Virus record (IMG/VR): IMGVR_UViG_3300032325_000464
Location: 1 to 64,000 of that record
DNA length: 64,000 nt
Reading direction: 5' to 3' (one strand)
Origin: a virus
Shown: one piece after another, positions 5,334 to 61,766 of the stretch
Position numbering within the stretch: the first letter of the stretch is position 1
Layout: each line of letters begins with the position of its first letter
Position numbers and translations under genes: made by a program
Notes under the pieces: generated by a model
Database searches by the model: none
What the model saw: the letters and a program-made list of their open reading frames with translations, nothing else
What the model was told of the DNA's origin: nothing

Positions 5334-5876
5334 TTAAATTGATTCTCCCCAAATAGGGATAAACCTTCCATCTTCAGTTCTTGTATAAGTCAGTATACCA
5401 TCGCCCATACGCCTTGTCAACTCTTGTGATGAAGGAGTTATATCATTAGTTACCAGCTTATCTTTTCTTGGTCTGCCCATATGATAGGAAGCAAGTATAT
5501 CACGAATTTCTCTTACCTGGGATTCTGAGTAATAGGACCTTACTTGCCAACCTCGTGCCCCACCTTTTTGGCTGCCCATTGGAAATGGAATAATTCCCCT
5601 TTTCATTAGGGACGGCATATACTTCTTATGTCTATTGATAAGATCTGCAGTTTCTCCCACAGTAAAAGCTCTTTCACGACCTTTTTTAAAATCATTAATT
5701 AAACAGCTTTCAATTTGATCTTTTGTAATATTATAAACAGACATTATGCCATTTGATTTATTTAGGTGGTGAATTCTAACCAAGTGACCATTTAAAAACC
5801 AAACCTTTTTGTTTCCAGGTATTACTGGTAATGAGTTATAGCCTTCTTTTTCTATGCTACCCTTTTTGATAGACAT
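5334..5876 (-). CDS. Putative DNA-binding protein with MerR-like helix-turn-helix and AT-hook-like motif
   Basis: 180 residues. Residues near 90-140 (FTVGETADLINRHKKYMPSL, then a wing-like segment and SESQVREIRDI) look like a MerR/excisionase-type winged helix-turn-helix. GRPRKDK immediately after resembles an AT-hook. It is the first gene of the replication group after the tail genes, so it may regulate this group or act at an origin; this is inference. Ribosome site AAGGATATCC precedes the ATG. Confidence 0.65.
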   Translation of the reverse strand: MSIKKGSIEKEGYNSLPVIPGNKKVWFLNGHLVRIHHLNKSNGIMSVYNITKDQIESCLINDFKKGRERAFTVGETADLINRHKKYMPSLMKRGIIPFPMGSQKGGARGWQVRSYYSESQVREIRDILASYHMGRPRKDKLVTNDITPSSQELTRRMGDGILTYTRTEDGRFIPIWGESI

Positions 5877-51835: not shown

Positions 51836-51971
51836 TTATCCACAGATTTTTTGTAGTTATTCACAGTTTTGTATTAGTTATCCACAGTTTTTTAATAGTT
51901 TTAAAAAATTTACACAATCGTAACAATTGATTTTATATATTTTGTTGCTTTTGGCTTTTTTATGTGTATAA
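51836..51971 (+). other. Putative DnaA-dependent replication origin
   Basis: Three DnaA boxes, TTATCCACA (51836-51844), TTATTCACA (51857-51865) and TTATCCACA (51878-51886), begin exactly 21 bp apart. A fourth in inverse orientation, TGTGTATAA, is at 51963-51971. The surrounding 200 bases are very AT-rich, suited to unwinding, and lie where gene orientation switches. The remaining non-coding bases to 52062 hold only AT-rich sequence. Confidence 0.65.
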
Positions 51972-53850: not shown

Positions 53851-54026
53851 TTTCTAATTGACCCCTTTGCTTTTGCTAATGATGTGAGCATTGACAATTC
53901 ACGCTCAAACTCTGATGTGATGTTCCAATCACTATCTTCTGCTATCTTGAGATAAGCCTCTAGAGTTTTCTCTAGTTGGGCTAATGACATCTTCATAAAA
54001 TCTGATGAAGTAGCGTATCTGTTCAT
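53844..54026 (-). CDS. Small helical protein
   Basis: 60 residues from the ATG at 54026, one base after the preceding stop; an in-frame ATG at 54044 is possible. Helical and charged (SLAQLEKTLEAYLKIAEDSD). Unknown function. Confidence 0.6.
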   Translation of the reverse strand: MNRYATSSDFMKMSLAQLEKTLEAYLKIAEDSDWNITSEFERELSMLTSLAKAKGSIRKW

Positions 54027-54027
54027 A

Positions 54028-54168
54028 CTAATTACACTCTCCATAAGCCTCGAAGCAGTATTCGCAACATTCCTGCTGGAATTCTTCTACATACACTCTT
54101 GGAGTGTAGTTGTCGCAGATTTCACACATTGCTACATCTGCTACATTTATCTTTAGTAAGTTCATCAT
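54028..54168 (-). CDS. 46-residue Cys-rich zinc-finger-like protein
   Basis: CEICDNYTP and CCEYCFEAYGEC: two CxxC pairs. AAGGAGTTCAG precedes the ATG at 54168. First gene of the minus-strand operon, driven by the promoter at 54198-54220. Confidence 0.6.
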   Translation of the reverse strand: MMNLLKINVADVAMCEICDNYTPRVYVEEFQQECCEYCFEAYGECN

Positions 54169-54197
54169 TCTGAACTCCTTTCTTTCTAACTACTTAT

Positions 54198-54220
54198 ACA
54201 CTATCACCACCTACCGACAT
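54198..54220 (-). promoter_or_regulatory. Phased ATGTC promoter, minus strand
   Basis: Minus strand ATGTCGGTAGG begins at 54220; the hexamer TAGTGT begins exactly 17 bases later. The only minus-strand example of the right-arm promoter class. Bases 54221-54280 hold nothing else recognisable. Confidence 0.5.
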
Positions 54221-54288
54221 TTATGCTCATTTTACTAAACATTTTTATACAAACTTTTGCCCTCTTTTTTGTAGGGTATCTACAAGAA

Positions 54289-54381
54289 CGACACGCCCGA
54301 GTGAGCGCGGGCCTGTGGATAACTATGTGTATAACTCTTTATAAGAACGTTATAAAAAACCCCCTAATTCCTGGCGTGTCG
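54289..54381. repeat. CGACACGCC inverted repeat with DnaA boxes and GC hairpin
   Basis: CGACACGCC (54289-54297) and its inverse GGCGTGTCG (54373-54381). Between them: GCCCG/CGGGC hairpin (54295-54312), and inverse DnaA boxes TGTGGATAA (54314-54322) and TGTGTATAA (54326-54334), 12 bp apart. Confidence 0.55.
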
Positions 54382-54382
54382 C

Positions 54383-54412
54383 TTGACAAATGTCGTAGGC
54401 CTATGATAGATT
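54383..54412 (+). promoter_or_regulatory. Phased ATGTC promoter
   Basis: TTGACA (54383-54388), ATGTCGTAGG from 54390, TAGATT at 54407-54412 (17 bases after the element's A). Confidence 0.6.
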
Positions 54413-54443
54413 TTTACTAACAACAAAAGAAAAGGATAATCAA

Positions 54444-54578
54444 ATGACAGTAGAAGTAATGTTTCACGATGGTTCAGCAATCTACCCTAGCTATGACCCA
54501 GAACACCGCAAAACTATTTTAGAATTCTACGCTAACCTTTTTGATAAGGGTGAAATTATGTCTTGGAAGGTAATCTAA
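54444..54578 (+). CDS. 44-residue unknown protein
   Basis: Begins MTVEVMFHDGSAIYPSYDPE; a short alpha/beta-like protein. GAAAAGGATAA ribosome site. Stop overlaps the next start (TAATG). Unknown function. Confidence 0.6.
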   Translation: MTVEVMFHDGSAIYPSYDPEHRKTILEFYANLFDKGEIMSWKVI

Positions 54579-54751
54579 TGATGAGTCGCAAAGACTATGA
54601 GGCAATTGCCGAAATAATCAAAACATACAATCTACAACTTCCAGAAATTACTTTGGAAAGTATTGTGAATGACTTTTGTGAAATGCTAACAGAAGATAAC
54701 CCACGGTTTGACGCTAACCGTTTTCGTGTTGCTGCTATGGAGGTAAACTAA
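54578..54751 (+). CDS. 57-residue actinophage-type unknown protein
   Basis: MMSRKDYEAIAEIIKTYN and FCEMLTEDNPRFDANRFRVA: a helical small protein of a kind frequent in actinobacteriophage early regions. Start at 54578 overlaps the preceding stop; the longer in-frame start at 54563 would run back into the upstream gene. Confidence 0.65.
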   Translation: MMSRKDYEAIAEIIKTYNLQLPEITLESIVNDFCEMLTEDNPRFDANRFRVAAMEVN

Positions 54752-54858
54752 TGATGTTTTACAACGGATTCAATCTAATGATTGACCTAATACTAATTGC
54801 TGTTGTGTATGTAATTGCTCACGGCATTGGATACCGCAAAAATAAAACACCATTCTAA
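54751..54858 (+). CDS. 35-residue membrane peptide
   Basis: One hydrophobic span (LMIDLILIAVVYVIAHGIG) and a basic end. Start overlaps the preceding stop. Unknown function. Confidence 0.5.
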   Translation: MMFYNGFNLMIDLILIAVVYVIAHGIGYRKNKTPF

Positions 54859-54879
54859 CGGCGTGTTGATTTGACAGAT

Positions 54880-54922
54880 CCCTCGAAAGAGGGCGCGGGC
54901 CTGTGGATAACCCTGTGAACAA
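54880..54922 (+). promoter_or_regulatory. GC module and DnaA box
   Basis: CCCTC, GAAA, GAGGG hairpin (54880-54893) followed by CGCGGGCC, then TGTGGATAA (54902-54910) and the near-box TGTGAACAA (54914-54922), again 12 bp apart as at 54314. Confidence 0.55.
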
Positions 54923-54967
54923 CTCCGTTATGAACTTGTTATGAAACACCCCAAAAGTATGCCAGAA

Positions 54968-54990
54968 ATGTCAGTGGTTTGTGATAGGGT
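54968..54990 (+). promoter_or_regulatory. Phased ATGTC promoter
   Basis: ATGTCAGTGG from 54968; TAGGGT at 54985-54990. Confidence 0.5.
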
Positions 54991-55020
54991 TTTTAGTAAG
55001 CCAAAAGAAAGGAATACCAA

Positions 55021-55161
55021 ATGGATAAGATGTGTGTTTACTGCGAGAGTGTTTTCACTAACGATACTATTGTTTGCCACAACTGTAATGAGTATGACGG
55101 AATGATGCCGTTGGAAAAAGCGGTTGACTATCTCAACCTTGACCCTAATGACTTTTACTAA
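55021..55161 (+). CDS. 46-residue zinc-finger-like protein
   Basis: CVYCESVF and CHNCNEYDG: two CxxC pairs, then an acidic C-terminus. GAAAGGAATACC ribosome site. Unknown function. Confidence 0.6.
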   Translation: MDKMCVYCESVFTNDTIVCHNCNEYDGMMPLEKAVDYLNLDPNDFY

Positions 55162-55162
55162 A

Positions 55163-55185
55163 ATGTCAGACCCCTATACTAAGTT
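55163..55185 (+). promoter_or_regulatory. Phased ATGTC promoter
   Basis: ATGTCAGACC from 55163, one base after the stop of the previous gene; TAAGTT at 55180-55185. Confidence 0.45.
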
Positions 55186-55209
55186 TATAGTAATCAGAAA
55201 GGATAACAG

Positions 55210-55356
55210 ATGAAGCAATCAGTAATCACAGACACCACCATAAGCACTATTGTTGCTAAGGCAGAAGATGTCATTGACAGACCTCTAACCTACATGGAGA
55301 ACGCACTTATAGAGTATGTAGTTGACCAGATTCGTTTAGGGTTGGTAGAGAAATGA
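55210..55356 (+). CDS. 48-residue unknown helical protein
   Basis: Contains TISTIVAKAEDVIDRPLTYM, helical. GAAAGGATAAC ribosome site. Ends in ATGA overlap with the next gene. Confidence 0.55.
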   Translation: MKQSVITDTTISTIVAKAEDVIDRPLTYMENALIEYVVDQIRLGLVEK

Positions 55357-55448
55357 CAATCGAAGAACTAGAAACTTTGATTTACCAAATTGACCTAATG
55401 CTAACTGAAAGTGTTAGCCAACTATTCACAACACCAGAGGAGAAATAA
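55353..55448 (+). CDS. 31-residue unknown peptide
   Basis: Helical (IEELETLIYQIDLMLTESVS). ATGA overlap with the upstream gene supports translation. Confidence 0.5.
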   Translation: MTIEELETLIYQIDLMLTESVSQLFTTPEEK

Positions 55449-55589
55449 ATGGAACTAGGTTTGATTCTTATTTTTATTGCTGTTGGCGTTTCAATTTTTG
55501 TTGGAACTTCGGTTGCCACAATTTTATTTTTGCTACAAGAAAATAACAGACTTGGCGAAGAGCTAGAAAAAAACGAAACCCCATTCTAA
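55449..55589 (+). CDS. 46-residue membrane protein
   Basis: Strongly hydrophobic N-terminal span (LILIFIAVGVSIFVGTSVAT) and an acidic cytoplasmic-like tail. Starts directly after the previous stop, with GAGGAGAAA as ribosome site. Unknown function. Confidence 0.55.
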   Translation: MELGLILIFIAVGVSIFVGTSVATILFLLQENNRLGEELEKNETPF

Positions 55590-55590
55590 A

Positions 55591-55615
55591 CGACACGCCC
55601 GAGAGGGCGCGGCCC
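55591..55615 (+). promoter_or_regulatory. GC module (three-arm)
   Basis: CGACACGCC, then GCCC (55597-55600), GAGA, GGGC (55605-55608), GCG, GCCC (55612-55615). The central GGGC can pair with the left or right GCCC. Directly after the stop. Confidence 0.6.
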
Positions 55616-55664
55616 ATCGCAGGATAATAAATAACCTTAAGAATATTTTAAGATCTCCCCCAAA

Positions 55665-55687
55665 ATGTCCTAGGTTAGTGATAAGAT
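55665..55687 (+). promoter_or_regulatory. Phased ATGTC promoter
   Basis: ATGTCCTAGG from 55665; TAAGAT at 55682-55687. Confidence 0.5.
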
Positions 55688-55713
55688 AATCTTATTAACG
55701 AAAGGAAACCCCA

Positions 55714-56235
55714 ATGACTAACCATGTAGAGATTTATTCAGAGATTGCAAGTCGTGCAACATTCGGCCAGGTAGAGCAGGCAACTAAGTGGTACCTTGAC
55801 GCAGAGACAGTAGCACGTGAAGTTGCAGCCAACCTAGGCGTGACACTTGAAGTAGGTGCAACTATTGTTTCAGCATTCAGCCCTCGTGAGCGCTGGGCAC
55901 GTAATGTTTCTAATGCTATCAAGTTTTCACTAGGCGAACATGTTACCGCTCTAGGCAATAACATTCGCATGGCTAACGCTGCATTTGACTTAGGCTTCAA
56001 GGCTTTGAATGGTCAGAAGACTAATGCATTTGCTAAGGCTATTGCAGGCAATGAAGAATCAGTTGTGATTGACGTATGGATGTTGCGAGCAGTTGGTATT
56101 GAGAAGAAGACACCTAACCAGTCTGGCTATAACGAACTTGCTAAAGCAGTGACTACTGTTGCAGTTAAGCATGGCATGACACCACGTGCAATGCAAGCCC
56201 TAATCTGGATTGTTGTTAGAGGAAGTGGAGAGTGA
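55714..56235 (+). CDS. 173-residue conserved unknown protein, glycosylase-like pattern
   Basis: Helical protein. SAFSPRERWARNVSNAIKF (residues about 53-71) and NAFAKAIAGNEESVVIDVWM (about 103-122), followed by RAVG, recall the layout of helix-hairpin-helix DNA glycosylases and their catalytically silent relatives (a conserved acidic residue in IDVW). No zinc or iron-sulfur cysteines. Function uncertain; related proteins are frequent in actinophages. AACGAAAGGAAACC ribosome site. Confidence 0.7.
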   Translation: MTNHVEIYSEIASRATFGQVEQATKWYLDAETVAREVAANLGVTLEVGATIVSAFSPRERWARNVSNAIKFSLGEHVTALGNNIRMANAAFDLGFKALNGQKTNAFAKAIAGNEESVVIDVWMLRAVGIEKKTPNQSGYNELAKAVTTVAVKHGMTPRAMQALIWIVVRGSGE

Positions 56236-56264
56236 TTGACAACAAAACCCTAGTATGGGATAAT
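56236..56264 (+). promoter_or_regulatory. Consensus promoter, leaderless GTG
   Basis: TTGACA (56236-56241) directly after the previous stop, 17-base spacer, GATAAT (56259-56264). GTG start at 56273, 8 bases after the hexamer. Confidence 0.6.
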
Positions 56265-56272
56265 GGTAAGTA

Positions 56273-56407
56273 GTGGAGTATTATATTTGGTTGCCAGTAT
56301 TTGTTTTGTTGTTTTTACTTTTGCTTTTTGCCCTGCTTCCAATTTTTGTTGGCATAATTTTCTTTCTAGAATATTTGGCAGAAATATTTAGCAAAATAAA
56401 AAGCTGA
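56273..56407 (+). CDS. 44-residue membrane protein, GTG start
   Basis: Hydrophobic along most of its length (FVLLFLLLLFALLPIFVGII) with a short basic end. Probably leaderless. Too short for a typical two-span holin; function unknown. Confidence 0.5.
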   Translation: MEYYIWLPVFVLLFLLLLFALLPIFVGIIFFLEYLAEIFSKIKS

Positions 56408-56497
56408 CAGACACTCACCGATCTGGAGGGCGCGGCACTTTTTCTATCAGAAGTCAATTACGTTATGCATTAAAAATCTCCTAGAATATCCCCCAAA

Positions 56498-56520
56498 ATG
56501 TCTGATGGTCATGCTAAGAT
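56498..56520 (+). promoter_or_regulatory. Phased ATGTC promoter
   Basis: ATGTCTGATGG from 56498; TAAGAT at 56515-56520; ATG at 56527 only 6 bases later, so leaderless. Confidence 0.55.
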
Positions 56521-56526
56521 AAATCT

Positions 56527-56682
56527 ATGAAGCTAGGAAAAGGTAATGAGGCAAGACGTAAGGCAGAAAGCCAAGCGCTATTCTTTACTATGCTCAAAGC
56601 CCCTCACCTAGTAGCAACCCCCAAGAAATACAAAGGAAGCCGTCAGTCTAACAAGGCTAAGGCAATAAAGGAAAGTGAATAA
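56527..56682 (+). CDS. 51-residue basic protein
   Basis: Lys/Arg-rich (GKGNEARRKAESQALFFTML, then KKYKGSRQSNKAKAIK). Likely nucleic-acid binding. Stop overlaps the next start. Confidence 0.55.
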   Translation: MKLGKGNEARRKAESQALFFTMLKAPHLVATPKKYKGSRQSNKAKAIKESE

Positions 56683-56822
56683 TGTACAGTTATATCTGTC
56701 AGGATTGTAATCGCTTTATCAACGGAGTTGAGACAATTTACTCCTATGCCCTCAAAAATGTCTGTGGCAGATGTTATGCTATTCAGGCAGGACACCCCTC
56801 AACAAGAAAGCTGGTAAAGTAA
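56682..56822 (+). CDS. 46-residue zinc-ribbon-like protein
   Basis: CQDCNRF and CGRCYAI form two CxxC knuckles 27 residues apart, then a basic end. Coupled on both sides by TAATG overlaps. Confidence 0.6.
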   Translation: MYSYICQDCNRFINGVETIYSYALKNVCGRCYAIQAGHPSTRKLVK

Positions 56823-57016
56823 TGCCAAAGTATAATGTAGCAGTTCAGTTATCAGGTAATGATGGAAACGCATTCTCAGTAATGGGAGCCGTAAAGTCTG
56901 CCCTCAAAAAAGCTGGAGCAAGTAGAGAAGAACTTGACGAATACGTATCAGACTCAATGTCTGGCGACTATGACAACTTATTGCGTGTAGCAATGGAATG
57001 GGTAAAGGTAAAGTAA
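56822..57016 (+). CDS. 64-residue conserved actinophage-type protein
   Basis: Begins MPKYNVAVQLSGNDGNAF, then VMGAVKSALKKAGASREELD: alpha/beta fold with acidic C-terminal part. This kind of small protein recurs in actinobacteriophage early regions; role unknown. Start chosen at the TAATG overlap. Confidence 0.65.
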   Translation: MPKYNVAVQLSGNDGNAFSVMGAVKSALKKAGASREELDEYVSDSMSGDYDNLLRVAMEWVKVK

Positions 57017-57297
57017 TGGGAATGATGACAGCAATGGACTTGGCAGGTAGCGAAGTCTCATTAGAGCAACAACTATCAATTCACTTTAGTAGCAACTGTT
57101 ATCCACCAATTCCACAACAGATGATTCCAACAGCTATTGCAGCGATTGACGCTTGTTGGGAAGAAGACTATGACTTGATGATACCGTTGCCAGATGGAGT
57201 ATCTTTCAGAGGACAGACTGAAGTGTCTGCTAGAAATGTTGTTGAGTCTTACAGGCTTGACGCCTGGTTGGTTGATTACTACGAAGATGAAGAGTAG
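57016..57297 (+). CDS. 93-residue unknown acidic protein
   Basis: Begins MGMMTAMDLAGSEVSLEQQL; ends in an Asp/Glu-rich stretch. Start at 57016 overlaps the preceding stop; 56998 in the same frame is less likely. Last gene of a four-gene operon closed by the GC module at 57307. Confidence 0.6.
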   Translation: MGMMTAMDLAGSEVSLEQQLSIHFSSNCYPPIPQQMIPTAIAAIDACWEEDYDLMIPLPDGVSFRGQTEVSARNVVESYRLDAWLVDYYEDEE

Positions 57298-57306
57298 CTA
57301 ACGCTG

Positions 57307-57328
57307 CCCCAGAAATGGGGCGCGGCCC
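57307..57328 (+). promoter_or_regulatory. GC module (three-arm)
   Basis: CCCCA (57307-57311), GAAA, TGGGG (57316-57320), CGCGG, CCC. The G-run can pair left (GNRA hairpin) or right (GGGC/GCCC). Confidence 0.6.
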
Positions 57329-57421
57329 AGGATCAGTCAAAAGTCAAACCGACACGCCCTTAAGAAGATAACAATTTATTCCCCAAATCGTTATAATTAT
57401 TTTGCCTTTGGGGGTAGATAA

Positions 57422-57444
57422 ATGTCGGTGGTTAGTGGTAAAAT
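57422..57444 (+). promoter_or_regulatory. Phased ATGTC promoter
   Basis: ATGTCGGTGG from 57422; TAAAAT at 57439-57444. The upstream hexamer is poor, so the element itself probably matters. A CGACACGCC copy is at 57348. Confidence 0.6.
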
Positions 57445-57507
57445 AAACCTATCAACAAAAGTTGGTAATAAAAACAAAACAGTCCCTCTGGGGCGGAACG
57501 GAAGCAA

Positions 57508-57660
57508 ATGTCAAACGCAACTCTAACTGTTGGCTCACAGTTCACCACTCTAAAGTCTGGAGTATCAGGCACAATTCAGGAAATCGTAAACAACAAGAAC
57601 GGCACTCAGCGTGTTCGCCTTGATGTAAACGGACAGCCACGCTGGACTACTGTAAAGTAA
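57508..57660 (+). CDS. 50-residue SH3-like small protein
   Basis: Beta-rich: LTVGSQFTTLKSGVSGTIQE and GTQRVRLDVNGQPRWTTVK read like a small five-stranded barrel. The GGAACGGAAGC ribosome site lies in a long leader with a possible CCC/GGG hairpin. Unknown role; possibly nucleic-acid binding. Confidence 0.6.
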   Translation: MSNATLTVGSQFTTLKSGVSGTIQEIVNNKNGTQRVRLDVNGQPRWTTVK

Positions 57661-57670
57661 TAAACTAATT

Positions 57671-57739
57671 ATTGTTGTGGCGTTAGACTACATAAAAGGG
57701 TGAATCAGAGTCTAGTTGAGAACCCCTGCCACTAACAAT
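57671..57739 (+). ncRNA. Compact structured RNA with pseudoknot potential
   Basis: Outer stem: ATTGTTGTGGC (57671-57681) with GCCACTAACAAT (57728-57739), 11 pairs and one bulge. Inside, TAGACT (57684-57689) pairs with AGTCTA (57709-57714); its loop contains GGGT (57698-57701), which can pair with ACCC (57722-57725). Located just after the 50-residue gene and just before a phased promoter. Confidence 0.5.
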
Positions 57740-57741
57740 AA

Positions 57742-57764
57742 ATGTCAGACCCTAATGATAAAAT
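57742..57764 (+). promoter_or_regulatory. Phased ATGTC promoter
   Basis: ATGTCAGACC from 57742; TAAAAT at 57759-57764. Confidence 0.55.
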
Positions 57765-57808
57765 AATGAAGTAAACAAAACCCCACAAGTAAAGGAAGCA
57801 ATAAAATT

Positions 57809-58258
57809 ATGGCTAGAACTATGTCAGTAAAAATCCCTGTATCCGCACTAATCTCAGACATTGAGAAGTCTATTGCCAAGATTGACGAAGCAATTACAAA
57901 CTACGCATCAGACCGAAAGAAGTATGAGGTAGATGTTGCCGCATACAAAGAAAGTGTTGCTGAGTTTGTTTCTAATTTCATTAGCAAGAACGCATCAAGC
58001 ATTGGCTATGACTACGAAAGTCTAATCCGTATCAACCACGCTTACAATGGCAAGGTAGAGTTGATACTTGACAAGGACTCCATTGAGGGTTTCCCTGAGA
58101 AGCCAGAAGAGCCAAGCAAGCCAAATGAGAAAGAGTGGTTTGGTCGTGAACACCAGACACGCAAACAAATCCTAGAGCGTAATCTCAAGGTGCTGCGTAT
58201 GACTACACAGGAAGAAGTTTCTGCTAGTTCATACTCCTCAGTAATGGAACTAATCTAA
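57809..58258 (+). CDS. 149-residue coiled-coil protein
   Basis: An N-terminal coiled coil (LISDIEKSIAKIDEAITNYA to KKYEVDVAAYKESV), a linker rich in Pro/Glu/Lys (PEKPEEPSKPNEKEW), and a helical end. AAAGGAAGCAAT ribosome site. Unknown function. Confidence 0.65.
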   Translation: MARTMSVKIPVSALISDIEKSIAKIDEAITNYASDRKKYEVDVAAYKESVAEFVSNFISKNASSIGYDYESLIRINHAYNGKVELILDKDSIEGFPEKPEEPSKPNEKEWFGREHQTRKQILERNLKVLRMTTQEEVSASSYSSVMELI

Positions 58259-58342
58259 ATAATCAAACAACCTGAGCAAGTTGTAAAACTGCTTCCCGAA
58301 TTGGGGTAGCGACTAGACGGGTAAAATAATTTCGCTCCACAT

Positions 58343-58410
58343 CCCCCTCACAAAAGCTGAAGATCGCAAGATCACAAATACTGAGAGGGGGAAAAGGTGG
58401 GCGCGGCCCC
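58343..58410 (+). promoter_or_regulatory. Nested hairpin and GC module
   Basis: CCCCCTC (58343-58349) pairs with GAGGGGG (58385-58391), enclosing GATC, GCAA, GATC (58362-58373). GGGCGCGGCCCCC follows, so the G-run again has a left and a right partner. The stretch 58259-58342 also holds a GCTTCCC/GGGGTAGC hairpin. Confidence 0.55.
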
Positions 58411-58460
58411 CATAACGAATTGGTAACAAGTTTAAGAAACACTATTAAGAGCCCTTGTAA

Positions 58461-58483
58461 ATGTCAGTGGTTGGCTGTAAAAT
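58461..58483 (+). promoter_or_regulatory. Phased ATGTC promoter
   Basis: TTGTAA, then ATGTCAGTGG from 58461, TAAAAT at 58478-58483. Confidence 0.65.
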
Positions 58484-58506
58484 ATAGCTATAACGAAAGG
58501 AACCCC

Positions 58507-58629
58507 ATGGACGAGCAAGCAGAAGAAATCAAACAGGACCTAGCCGACTACTATGCTAACCCACAAGAATACACACTCTTTGACTTTGAGGAAATCTTTC
58601 AGGACAGGGACCCATTTGAATTCCTATAA
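58507..58629 (+). CDS. 40-residue acidic protein
   Basis: Asp/Glu-rich with aromatic residues (MDEQAEEIKQDLADYYANPQ). ATG at 58507 behind CGAAAGGAACCCC; a longer frame from 58420 would cross the promoter. Possibly an inhibitor-type DNA mimic, speculative. Confidence 0.55.
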   Translation: MDEQAEEIKQDLADYYANPQEYTLFDFEEIFQDRDPFEFL

Positions 58630-58651
58630 TGTCGTAGGGTCCTGGTAGAAT
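58629..58651 (+). promoter_or_regulatory. Phased ATGTC promoter
   Basis: ATGTCGTAGG begins on the last base of the preceding stop codon (58629); TAGAAT at 58646-58651. Confidence 0.55.
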
Positions 58652-58676
58652 TCAAACAAATAACGAAAGGAAAATA

Positions 58677-58871
58677 ATGAGCTTACTAAATAACATTGGA
58701 TACGTTTCCTATGACGGAAACTATGGAGCTGAAGCGGACCTACTAGTTTTCGACAGCAATGACCTCACTCTACAACAGTGGGAAACCCTAGGTGAGATAA
58801 ACGACAACTCTAGGTATGAGTATGTTGAAGCTATTTTTGCAGGTAAAGACCTATCTGAGTGGGAGGGCTAA
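58677..58871 (+). CDS. 64-residue acidic unknown protein
   Basis: Begins MSLLNNIGYVSYDGNYGAEA; rich in Asp/Glu and Tyr. CGAAAGGAAAAT ribosome site. Stop overlaps the next start. Confidence 0.6.
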   Translation: MSLLNNIGYVSYDGNYGAEADLLVFDSNDLTLQQWETLGEINDNSRYEYVEAIFAGKDLSEWEG

Positions 58872-59215
58872 TGCTACGTACAGATGAGACTTACTGGAAA
58901 ATCAAAGAGTACACAGATGAGGCCAAGGGTATAGCTTGGGACACATGTCACAAAATTTATATTCTTATGGATGACAATCAGGTAGCGCTAATGCGTGAGT
59001 ATGAATATGACCCAATCATCACGTCAGAACAAATAAACCCAGCCGAAATGGCAACGGTTGCAGCTGTTTGGTTTGAAAAGTCTTGTGCACTAAGATTTGT
59101 AAATGCAGTCTACAGTGATACTTCAATTGGACACGAGGGTTTTGTCAACGTCATTGCGCAGTTTGAAGGCGATGAAGAAGAAGACGATGAATATGATGAG
59201 GATGAAGATGAGTAA
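58871..59215 (+). CDS. 114-residue protein with acidic tail
   Basis: Start at the TAATG overlap (58871). An alpha/beta body (YWKIKEYTDEAKGIAWDTCH) ends in about 18 residues that are nearly all Asp/Glu. Function unknown. Confidence 0.65.
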   Translation: MLRTDETYWKIKEYTDEAKGIAWDTCHKIYILMDDNQVALMREYEYDPIITSEQINPAEMATVAAVWFEKSCALRFVNAVYSDTSIGHEGFVNVIAQFEGDEEEDDEYDEDEDE

Positions 59216-59309
59216 TATTTGGGAGCCAGCTCCAGGTGGAGTCTGGGATAGCTTCTTCCGTGAAGCAGGCTTTGACAATGGAGATAGCGAAGACGACGAA
59301 GACCTGTAG
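59208..59309 (+). CDS. 33-residue acidic peptide
   Basis: ATG at 59208 overlaps the previous stop (ATGAGTAA). Product MSNIWEPAPGGVWDSFFREA then an Asp/Glu-rich end. Followed by two hairpins (CATTCC/GGAATG and TGGCC/GGCCA) and the GCGCGGCCC module. Confidence 0.5.
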   Translation: MSNIWEPAPGGVWDSFFREAGFDNGDSEDDEDL

Positions 59310-59449
59310 TGCATTCCCTTACTTCCTTTCTGGAATGTACTACCGTCCTGGCCATGACGTAAATCTGGCCACCTTTTGTGCGCGGCCCACTTAACAGATC
59401 CATAACAACTTTAAGAAGAATTAAGATGTTTCCCTAAAACCCCTTGTAA

Positions 59450-59472
59450 ATGTCGGTGGGTAGCTGTAAAAT
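59450..59472 (+). promoter_or_regulatory. Phased ATGTC promoter
   Basis: TTGTAA, then ATGTCGGTGG from 59450, TAAAAT at 59467-59472. Confidence 0.65.
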
Positions 59473-59501
59473 GATACTACCCGAAAAGAAAGGAACCCCC
59501 A

Positions 59502-60005
59502 ATGGGAACCAGAAACCTAACAGTAGTAAAGAATAAAGCAGGGAAAAACAAGATTGCTCAATACGGACAATGGGACGGCTACCCAAGTTATTCAGGTGTT
59601 CAAGCCCTAGCATTTCTAAGAGACGAAGGCAACCAAGCCCTGCTACAAGCAAAGCTAGACCTTGTCCAGTTTGTTGGTGATGAGGAAGTAGATACCCTGT
59701 ATAAGCAGTATGAAACTACCGATTGGGAGAATAAAGATTTCCTAAACGCATACCCTGGACTTCACAGAGATACTGGTGTTGGTATCCTATCAGTAGTTGC
59801 TAACGCTGTTGCTCCTGTCAAGACTGTTGATAACACAGAGTTTGCTAAAGATGAATTGTTTTGTGAAGGTATCTTTGAGGTAGACTTCAAGACTAACAAG
59901 TTTATTACTGTCTATGCTGACAAGAAGGTTGAGTTTGACCTTGCCACTCTACCAACAGATGAAGAATACCTAGCCCAGTGGGAAGTGCAGCAAGTTGCTT
60001 CATAA
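59502..60005 (+). CDS. 167-residue GTRNLT-type conserved phage protein
   Basis: The N-terminus MGTRNLTVVKNKAGKNKIAQ followed by YGQWDGYPSYSG is a widely distributed phage family without assigned function. The compact alpha/beta body ends in an acidic segment. GAAAGGAACCCCC ribosome site; phased promoter upstream. Confidence 0.75.
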   Translation: MGTRNLTVVKNKAGKNKIAQYGQWDGYPSYSGVQALAFLRDEGNQALLQAKLDLVQFVGDEEVDTLYKQYETTDWENKDFLNAYPGLHRDTGVGILSVVANAVAPVKTVDNTEFAKDELFCEGIFEVDFKTNKFITVYADKKVEFDLATLPTDEEYLAQWEVQQVAS

Positions 60006-60174
60006 TCTAGATACCAAATACCTAACAGGGGACATCGCAAAGGATGTTCAGTTTATAAAAGATAACCTTAGTATTGATGACGAAGAGTTCTTTAGAAGGG
60101 CTATGGCTAACATAATGTCTGAGGGTAATGCTAGAATTGACTTACTTACTGGAGAGGAACTAAACAAACTATGA
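59995..60174 (+). CDS. 59-residue unknown protein, TTG start
   Basis: The frame opens at TTG 59995 inside the end of the previous gene, with GGGAAG upstream, and its stop overlaps the next start (ATGA). Helical acidic product (DIAKDVQFIKDNLSIDDEEF). Overlaps on both sides make a real gene likely. Confidence 0.5.
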   Translation: MLHNLDTKYLTGDIAKDVQFIKDNLSIDDEEFFRRAMANIMSEGNARIDLLTGEELNKL

Positions 60175-60344
60175 AGAAAACTTGGCAAGTAGAGTATAGT
60201 GCTACCTATTGGGTAGAAGCAGAAACAGAAGATGAAGCAATTGAATTGGCTATTGAATCACACGCTGACCTACCAGACGGTAGTTGGGAAGCAATGATTG
60301 ACCCCTATGATAGCAACAACTTCAATACGCTAGGAGAAAAGTGA
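60171..60344 (+). CDS. 57-residue unknown protein
   Basis: Begins MKKTWQVEYSATYWVEAETE, then DEAIELAIESH. A similar pattern (YFKVQREYT, VEADSKEHAEELA) occurs in the 61930 gene; both resemble short alpha/beta proteins that recur in phages. Ends in a GTGA overlap. Confidence 0.6.
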   Translation: MKKTWQVEYSATYWVEAETEDEAIELAIESHADLPDGSWEAMIDPYDSNNFNTLGEK

Positions 60345-60433
60345 TTATCGAATGCCCCAACCATGAGGGCAACTTTGACTGTACACCATTTTGCAATTTG
60401 TGTGAAGGAGAACAAGAGTATGTCAGTGAGTGA
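60341..60433 (+). CDS. 30-residue zinc-finger-like peptide, GTG start
   Basis: CPNHEGNFDCTPFCNLC: a compact cluster of four cysteines and one His. Starts in GTGA overlap with the upstream stop. Confidence 0.45.
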   Translation: MIIECPNHEGNFDCTPFCNLCEGEQEYVSE

Positions 60434-60602
60434 ACTAGAACAAATCGGGTATGAAGAAGGAATGAAGGATACCTATGCTTACATTATCAATACTATACGT
60501 AAGGCAATAGAGAATCCTTCACTTGATGTCATACCGTCAAAAATGGCACTACAAGTCCTGTTGGCAAGTTTAGAAGCTGACAGGGAAGAGAGCACGGTCT
60601 AA
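60420..60602 (+). CDS. 60-residue helical protein
   Basis: ATG at 60420 behind GAAGGAGAAC. MSVSELEQIGYEEGMKDTYA and SKMALQVLLASLEADR are helical. Overlaps the upstream peptide by 14 bases. Unknown function. Confidence 0.6.
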   Translation: MSVSELEQIGYEEGMKDTYAYIINTIRKAIENPSLDVIPSKMALQVLLASLEADREESTV

Positions 60603-60605
60603 GCT

Positions 60606-60626
60606 CCCCGAAAGGGGCGCGGCCCC
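60606..60626 (+). promoter_or_regulatory. GC module (three-arm), clearest copy
   Basis: CCCC (60606-60609), GAAA, GGGG (60614-60617), CGCGG, CCCC (60623-60626). GGGG can pair with either CCCC. Three bases after the stop. Confidence 0.65.
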
Positions 60627-60681
60627 AATATAACAGATCTATAACAACTTTAAGAACCTTAAGAATGTTTCCCCAGATGGC

Positions 60682-60710
60682 TTGACATTGTCGGTGGGTC
60701 ATGGGATAAT
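60682..60710 (+). promoter_or_regulatory. Phased promoter with consensus -35
   Basis: TTGACA (60682-60687), TTGTCGGTGG from 60688 and GATAAT at 60705-60710, again 17 bases from the element start. Confidence 0.7.
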
Positions 60711-60752
60711 AGTCTTACTAAACATTCACCCCTAAAAGAAAGTTGAACACAA

Positions 60753-61766
60753 ATGGCTCATGACCTAGAATCCGCAAACGGCCAGACTGCTTTTGCTTCA
60801 TTGCGACAGCCAGCTTGGCATGGTCTTGGAACTGTTTTCCAAGACGAGGTAGACACATCAGAAATGTTGTCTCTGGCTCACCTAAACGATTGGAACGTCC
60901 GTCTTGAAGATGTAGAGACTCCAGAGGGTTTCAACAGCGACAAGTCTTATTCATTCGTGACAAGAACTAACCCATTCGACAGAAACACTAACGACATTCT
61001 TGGTGTTGTTGGTGAACGCTATGTCCCTCTTCAGAATGAGGACTTATTTTCATTCGGAGACAACCTGCTAGACGGCGGAGGTCGTTGGGAAACTGCTGGC
61101 TCTATCAAGGGTGGGCGTGTTGTCTTTGGCTCTATCGCATTGGATAACTCAATTACCCTAGACCCAAATGGCATTGCTGATAAGATTGATAACTATCTTC
61201 TAATCAACACTAGCCACGACGGCTCTATTGCGATTCAGGCTTCTATCACACCTGTTCGTGTTGTTTGTGCCAACACTCTAAACCTTGCTCTATCTTCATT
61301 CAAGGGCAAGAAAGATGTCAAGCAAACTTTCAAGATTCGCCACACACAGACTGCCGAAGGTAAAATTGCGGTTGCTCGTGAGGCTCTTGGACTTGCTCAC
61401 AAATACATTGACGAGTTCTCAACTATGGCTAACGAAATGATTCAGACTGAAATTACTAAGGCTCAGTTTGATAAGATTGTTGAACTTGCCTACCCTGCCC
61501 CTGCTAAGGACGCCAAGGGTTCACAGAAAAAGTATGACAGCAAAATTGATTTGCTTCAGTCTATTTATGTTGGCGATTTCAATAACACCATTAGCGGAAC
61601 TGCTTGGGGTGCTTTCAATGCTCTAACCGAAAGACTAGACTGGTATCGCAATTCCCGAGGCGGAAAGAACGAAAGCATTCTTGCTTCTGCTTCTGGCTTT
61701 GACCCAATGATAAACGCTGAGAAGAATCGTTTGATGAAAGTTGTTCGCCAAGCCGTAATGGCATAA
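60753..61766 (+). CDS. DUF932 family protein
   Basis: 337 residues. Matches the phage/plasmid-like DUF932 family: AWHGLGTVF near the start, GVVGERYVPLQNEDLF near 85-100, and ITPVRVVCANTLNLAL near 165-180. These proteins are widespread in large phages and plasmids; their function is unknown. It is the only gene of its transcription unit, with AAAGAAAGTTG upstream and a GC module after it. Confidence 0.85.
   Translation: MAHDLESANGQTAFASLRQPAWHGLGTVFQDEVDTSEMLSLAHLNDWNVRLEDVETPEGFNSDKSYSFVTRTNPFDRNTNDILGVVGERYVPLQNEDLFSFGDNLLDGGGRWETAGSIKGGRVVFGSIALDNSITLDPNGIADKIDNYLLINTSHDGSIAIQASITPVRVVCANTLNLALSSFKGKKDVKQTFKIRHTQTAEGKIAVAREALGLAHKYIDEFSTMANEMIQTEITKAQFDKIVELAYPAPAKDAKGSQKKYDSKIDLLQSIYVGDFNNTISGTAWGAFNALTERLDWYRNSRGGKNESILASASGFDPMINAEKNRLMKVVRQAVMA

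Follow-up and report, generated by a model that had tools for sequence, protein, structure and literature searches.

LexA-independent recA P1 promoters of mycobacteria, known as RecA-NDp, have the consensus tTGTCRgtg-8 nt-TAnnnT (PMC5656591), and the motif of PafBC in M. tuberculosis has been given as TGTCGG or TGTCAG-N10-TA-N3-T (PMC8151990). PafBC is activated by single-stranded DNA (ssDNA). It inserts between promoter DNA and region 4 of sigma-A, and its PafB subunit reads the motif at -26 (PMC11804915). Here we describe what may be the same type of promoter in a virus. The window, meaning the whole stretch of DNA that was analysed, consists of bases 1-64000 of the viral record IMGVR_UViG_3300032325_000464 (77,957 bp in total). 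Its right arm (53901-61000) carries many copies of an element beginning with ATGTC, placed exactly 17 bp before a -10 hexamer. We suggest, with a probability of roughly 0.7, that the phage carries these sites as promoters of the PafBC type (RecA-NDp), and that a clade of lytic actinophages has put a putative early arm under the control of the host PafBC. Within this suggestion we infer the dependence on PafBC, the triggering by ssDNA, the early timing, the identity of the host and its possession of PafBC.

A sequence-only reading had listed twelve such sites in the arm. All twelve are where it placed them, with the first base of the element 17 bp before TANNNT (GATAAT in one case). The background was taken from 2000 dinucleotide shuffles of the right arm. 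The pattern [AT]TGTC-N12-[TG]A-N3-T occurs 16 times in the real sequence (13 on the plus strand and 3 on the minus strand; shuffle mean 1.2, maximum 6). For the stricter ATGTC-N-[GT]-N10-TANNNT the count is 13 (mean 0.16, maximum 3). An equal density in shuffled sequence would have spoken against the pattern; since the arm is far above the shuffles, it stands. Between 54 and 62 kb, 13 of the ATGTC-to-TANNNT distances are 17 bp, with 0 to 3 at each other distance; from 1 to 54 kb there are 6 at 17 bp, not above several other distances. A scoring matrix built from related viruses, used with a threshold of 13 at which the reversed genome gives zero matches, finds 14 sites in the arm. These are all twelve listed sites and two others, at 56758 (score 20.1) and 60115 (28.9), both of which overlap coding sequence, with the start of an open reading frame (ORF) about 40-60 bp downstream. 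The class is limited to the arm: four sites elsewhere score 13-17, as against 17-31 within it. The observation is real and is stronger than was first claimed.

It had also been said that only some sites have a good -35. TTGACA or TTGTAA is indeed present only at 54390, 58461, 59450 and 60688. The canonical sigma-A arrangement, a TTGACA-like -35 at 16-18 bp, is seen in just these 4 of the 12 window sites and in 16% of the sites of relatives (81 of 491 with TTG at -35; absent in about 84%). The idea that the element fills the spacer has to be given up, as the conserved stretch spans roughly -32 to -20; the bases between it and the -10, 7 bp in all, are almost unconstrained save for a partial TGn. 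The sites, and the gene that follows the last of them, are as follows (PafBC-type being our candidate assignment throughout).

54198..54220, minus strand: candidate divergent PafBC-type promoter, ATGTCGGTAGG (-26 element) and TAGTGT (-10), before ORF 54028-54168 (minus strand); score 20.7
54383..54412, plus strand: candidate PafBC-type promoter with -35 TTGACA, ATGTCGTAGG and TAGATT, before ORF 54444; score 23.7
54968..54990, plus strand: candidate PafBC-type promoter, ATGTCAGTGG and TAGGGT, before ORF 55021; score 17.0
55163..55185, plus strand: candidate PafBC-type promoter of the ACC sub-type, ATGTCAGACCCC and TAAGTT, before ORF 55210; score 24.6
55665..55687, plus strand: candidate PafBC-type promoter, ATGTCCTAGG and TAAGAT, before ORF 55714; score 24.5
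56498..56520, plus strand: candidate PafBC-type promoter, ATGTCTGATGG and TAAGAT, before ORF 56527; score 26.4
56758..56780, plus strand: additional site, missed in the sequence-only reading, ATGTCTGTGG and TATGCT, within ORF 56682-56822 and 42 bp ahead of an in-frame ATG at 56822; score 20.1
57422..57444, plus strand: candidate PafBC-type promoter, the best site, ATGTCGGTGG and TAAAAT, before ORF 57508; score 30.7
57742..57764, plus strand: candidate PafBC-type promoter of the ACC sub-type, ATGTCAGACCC and TAAAAT, before ORF 57809; score 24.0
58455..58483, plus strand: candidate PafBC-type promoter with TTGTAA at -35, ATGTCAGTGG and TAAAAT, before ORF 58507; score 27.8
58629..58651, plus strand: candidate PafBC-type promoter, ATGTCGTAGGG and TAGAAT, before ORF 58677; score 25.4
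59444..59472, plus strand: candidate PafBC-type promoter with TTGTAA at -35, ATGTCGGTGGG and TAAAAT, before ORF 59502; score 27.0
60115..60137, plus strand: additional site, likewise missed, ATGTCTGAGGG and TAGAAT, the element 56 bp before ORF 60171; score 28.9
60682..60710, plus strand: candidate hybrid promoter of the DUF932-type gene, TTGACA (-35), TTGTCGGTGGG (-26) and GATAAT (-10); score 24.2
60753..61766, plus strand: conserved DUF932-type protein, 337 amino acids, phrog_1221

The sequence of the site at 56758 is identical in G008, an identity for which coding conservation could also account; the site at 60115 is the same in G008 and has variants in G005, G006, G012 and G013.

With the DUF932-type protein as anchor, 39 related loci were retrieved from IMG/VR. 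A search of relatives at fixed spacing had been proposed, and here the ATGTC-to-TANNNT distances peak once, at exactly 17 bp (445 cases, as against about 40 elsewhere), the counts at 16 (24) and 18 (37) being background. Scanning the collection for AATGTCRGTGG-N7-TATAAT gave at least 120 viral stretches. Among the 120 listed, 107 have proteins in common with this phage group, and in the first 80 loci tabulated the 17-bp peak is 737 against about 100. The logo of 384 nonredundant sites reads wAAATGTCnG[A/T][G/C][G/C]-N7-TAtaaT-A[G/A]A, followed by T at position -1 and A at position +1; it contains no -35. In 1024 nonredundant sites selected for TGTCNG the first base is A in 808 and T in 216, and the end of the element is TGG in 438 and ACC in 211. 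Of the 83 phage loci that have at least six sites, 55 contain both sub-types, [A/G]GTGG and [A/T]GACC.

Could these simply be extended -10 promoters, used by the host holoenzyme alone, with the element as a favourable spacer sequence? Some sub-types often have a TGn, and the T at -1, the A at +1 and the A-rich discriminator are conserved. However, no more than about 22% of sites in the commonest sub-type (TGG) have a TGn, and the most conserved part is ATGTCnG, a specificity that spacer sequence alone would not yield. We regard this explanation as very improbable.

A different suggestion is that a single phage repressor uses the element as its operator, acting in immunity or early shut-off in the manner of the L5 stoperators. 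Its position between -35 and -10, its asymmetry and its number are compatible with this: there are 7 to 30 copies per phage, in one genome arm, ahead of nearly every gene there. In seven large records they are gathered in a single arm and almost all point the same way, the one or two that diverge lying at its edge. Against an operator, 253 of 263 copies of WATGTCnGWSS have NANNNT exactly 17 bp on. An operator needs no such lock, and an element so locked to a -10 has hardly any role other than that of a promoter element. A stoperator may stand at any distance, whereas these sites are tied to the -10, and the L5 type was rejected for this reason. In addition, no tyrosine integrase was found in the phages, nor was a WYL domain in 18 phage records, which together make an immunity repressor of the lysogeny type unlikely.

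The promoter of the DUF932 gene bears on the same question. Of 35 relatives, 32 have the -26 promoter upstream of this gene, 29 of them together with a TTG -35, the typical hybrid being TTGACA-[A/T]TGTC...-TAAAAT. In the three cases without the -26 element, a TTGAC -35 and a -10 remain. Since a canonical -35/-10 is what stays where the element is absent, the element seems to act as an aid to transcription, and this too is at odds with an operator, which we consider improbable. Given its good -35, the hybrid could be read without PafBC as well as with it.

How do the phage sites compare with the PafBC promoters? TGTCnG-N10-TANNNT agrees with both published consensuses in its letters and in the distance of 17 bp, and ATGTCNG-N10-TANNNT, the search pattern that came with the sequence-only reading, is nearly identical to the motif. 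Phage and RecA-NDp promoters share the -26 TGTC[R]G.., the 17 bp to TANNNT, a dispensable -35 and a fixed orientation; the deviation is in the first base of the -26 motif, A in place of t. The insertion of PafBC at sigma-A region 4 predicts both a missing -35 and a fixed spacing, and both are seen. The phage copies differ from RecA-NDp in being carried by lytic phages as dense arrays, 7-30 within a single arm, ahead of small genes that are unrelated, in preferring A as first base, in often mixing GTGG and GACC sub-types in one phage, and in the hybrid -35/-26 at the DUF932 gene.

If this assignment is correct, host RNA polymerase with sigma-A would recognise the -10, often TGn-extended, while PafB of the host PafBC heterodimer would read the -26 element, NTGTCnGWSS. 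PafC would bridge to sigma-A region 4 and so substitute for the missing -35 (sigma adaptation). Such geometry would demand exactly 17 bp from element to -10, hence the rigid spacing. ssDNA arising from DNA entry, from replication or from damage to the host chromosome would then activate PafBC and, through it, the arm.

Bacterial genomes speak for this assignment. We examined a sample of 30 actinobacterial genomes, in 29 of which recA was located. In five genomes, each about 9 Mb in size, TTGTCAGTGGCAGGCGT-TAGCGT stands upstream of recA at 17 bp (TTGTCAGTGGC..TAGCGT layout), and all five have strong HTH_PafC matches. A sixth, G168 (2.4 Mb, 59% GC), has the strongest PafC match of the sample, and its recA is preceded by GTGTCATACCCCCTCGC-TACGCT. 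In the 0.54 Mb of G168 that was scanned, the TGTCATACCCC form also stands ahead of radA (named from sequence inspection) and of a comM-like gene of the Mg_chelatase family. All three genes have NTGTCATACCCC-N-TANNNT at 17 bp, close to the phage ACC sub-type, and the restricted motif of this genome has a single peak at 17 (9, with 2 or fewer at other distances). The other 24 of the 30 genomes, including the one without a located recA, have neither a strong PafC match nor the motif at recA. PafC and the recA motif thus occur together in 6 of 6 genomes, and because the motif is at recA only where the PafC match is strong, it goes with PafC. Both phage sub-types, [A/G]GTGG and [A/T]GACC, have counterparts before bacterial recA. 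The exact phage pattern gave 46 scattered matches and no array in 198 actinobacterial genomes. On contig C27 (L337) of G168, at offset 720 of the minus strand, a phage-like AATGTCAGACCCCCCACC-TAAAAT lies directly before a DNA-methyltransferase-like gene; it possibly belongs to a mobile element with the same promoter type.

The reader of the element might instead be encoded by the phage. In T4, the activator MotA serves middle promoters with a box (a/t)(a/t)(a/t)TGCTTtA at -30, 12 +/- 1 bp from the -10, and with TGn in about half of them; an analogue of MotA would make the present sites a delayed-early (middle) class. The layouts are alike (MotA/AsiA sigma appropriation): a box in the -30 region replaces the -35, the -10 is kept, some 12 bp separate box core and -10, and TGn is partly present. 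Outside the arm these genomes carry ordinary TTGACA-N16-18-TANNNT promoters, as an immediate-early set would need. A candidate reader could be the conserved 180-amino-acid protein encoded at 5334-5876 (minus strand; phrog_9440), which to the eye has a MerR-like helix-turn-helix. On the other side, the box sequence differs, the phage element being AATGTCnGWSS; the phage sites have zero spacing tolerance as against +/- 1 in T4, and their probable reader is a host protein. The element shares its sequence with the host PafBC motif, and counterparts of both sub-types precede recA in genomes that encode PafC. A search for the C-terminal domain of MotA (MotCF) had no match, but it had none in the control genomes either. 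An activator of this kind is unlikely in our view, though it deserves to be kept in mind. Other phage-encoded candidates were tried and set aside: PafC, like WYL, was not detected in the phages, Sigma70_r4, the mark of a phage sigma factor, was without match in 14 records, and domain searches of ten conserved phage proteins revealed no clear regulator. The coding sequence at 5334-5876 also holds TTGACA-N17-TATACT, which recurs in relatives, probably through conservation of the peptide.

The sequence-only reading had proposed that one phage repressor or activator controls all units of the arm, including the divergent one at 54168. Control by one factor is supported by the single element, its invariant spacing and its conservation in relatives. 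An activator is favoured because the -35 is absent in most sites and the element is found almost only at 17 bp from the -10. Its phage origin is less likely: as the element has the sequence of the PafBC motif of hosts and no WYL activator was found in the phages, a host activator is the most likely choice.

Which hosts are concerned? The nearest cultured phages are the Streptomyces Boydwoodruffvirinae, with identities of 46-48% for the portal, 49-55% for the DUF932 protein and 38-40% for the helicase, and WhiB genes are present in 9 of 14 relatives. Both facts indicate actinobacterial hosts, and the viruses probably infect actinobacteria. WhiB brings up another possible reader, since GACAT is the reverse complement of ATGTC and WhiB works together with WhiA at GACAC, the WhiA motif. 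Host WhiA and WhiB might then recognise the element. This was rejected on the counts of GTGTC (the reverse complement of GACAC), which at 17 bp is near background, 39 as against 445 for ATGTC. Orientation and spacing of the phage element are also fixed, whereas WhiA motifs have no fixed orientation. We give almost no credence to this proposal.

In the Boydwoodruffvirinae (Jay2Jay, Coruscant, LukeCage, Tomas, Daubenski) there is a homologous DUF932 arm, divergent from the structural genes. It holds numerous small genes, every one with a promoter of its own, and is found at both genome ends, i.e. at two places per record. By analogy with this layout, the arm of the present phage may be early. 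The early promoters of the cultured group have the same 17-bp class spacing, some with nTGTC after the -35; they differ in that TTGnnn-N17-TAGACT or TAAGCT promoters keep the -35 and are mostly without TGTCnG. Boydwoodruffvirinae, Dorin, Patelgo, Jace, Jawnski and LuckyBarnes were considered as cultured carriers and show no clear class.

Several points weigh against control by host PafBC. The presence of PafBC in the host is presumed, which is the main weakness, and a phage-encoded reader is the main rival. The motif is missing from cultured Boydwoodruffvirinae, from Dorin and Patelgo and from three other DUF932 phages. Phages favour A at the first position (808 to 216 for T) where the published consensus has t, and they tolerate T at the consensus R position. 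Among the actinobacterial genomes sampled, the small ones of low GC have neither a strong PafC match nor the recA motif, and since the phages of the clade have 39-43% GC, their host could be one that is free of PafBC.

There are looser precedents for the use of host factors by phages, such as the activator PhoB by cyanophages or LexA by temperate phages, and LexA-type damage signals are exploited by phages for prophage induction. The promoter type itself is known. Our literature searches on PafBC or RecA-NDp with phage found no paper linking PafBC to phage promoters, nor the use of such arrays across the arm of a lytic phage clade. If our suggestion is true, a lytic arm run by a DNA-damage activator of the host would be a strategy distinct from LexA-based prophage induction, and it would tie the ssDNA sensor PafBC to phage infection. 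One can go further and speculate that a widespread lytic actinophage clade uses the ssDNA-sensing PafBC of its hosts as master activator of the putative early arm. The alarm raised by infection would then fuel the takeover in a positive loop, and a host that lowers its PafBC would gain partial resistance; we would give this even odds. Arrays of NTGTCnGWSS-N7-TANNNT may serve as a signature for spotting actinophages among uncultured viruses, and the signature may also predict damage-responsive promoters of the hosts of these viruses.

A few other features were noticed. Positions 63500-77957 of the record (L001) encode, by sequence inspection, GroES-like co-chaperonin, Hsp20-like and GDP-mannose 4,6-dehydratase-like proteins. 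A scan of genome contigs for GDP-mannose dehydratase, made with the host in mind, matched many unrelated phyla and was uninformative. At 56236-56264 the arm also contains a canonical promoter, TTGACA-17-GATAAT, that has no TGTC element. The sequence GGGCGCGG occurs in 6 copies (0.14 expected), at 54891, 55605, 56428, 57318, 58399 and 60615. Each copy lies 60-105 bp ahead of one of the arm promoters, and AT-rich TTAAGAA stretches often come next; perhaps it is a terminator stem or a second cis-element. The DnaA-box-like TTATNCACA is present in 10 copies in the window (3.6 expected), three of them with 21-bp spacing at 51836-51886 and three more within the promoter arm (54314-54334, 54902-54910). 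The cluster is a possible origin, or a point of contact for host DnaA, where the two arms meet.

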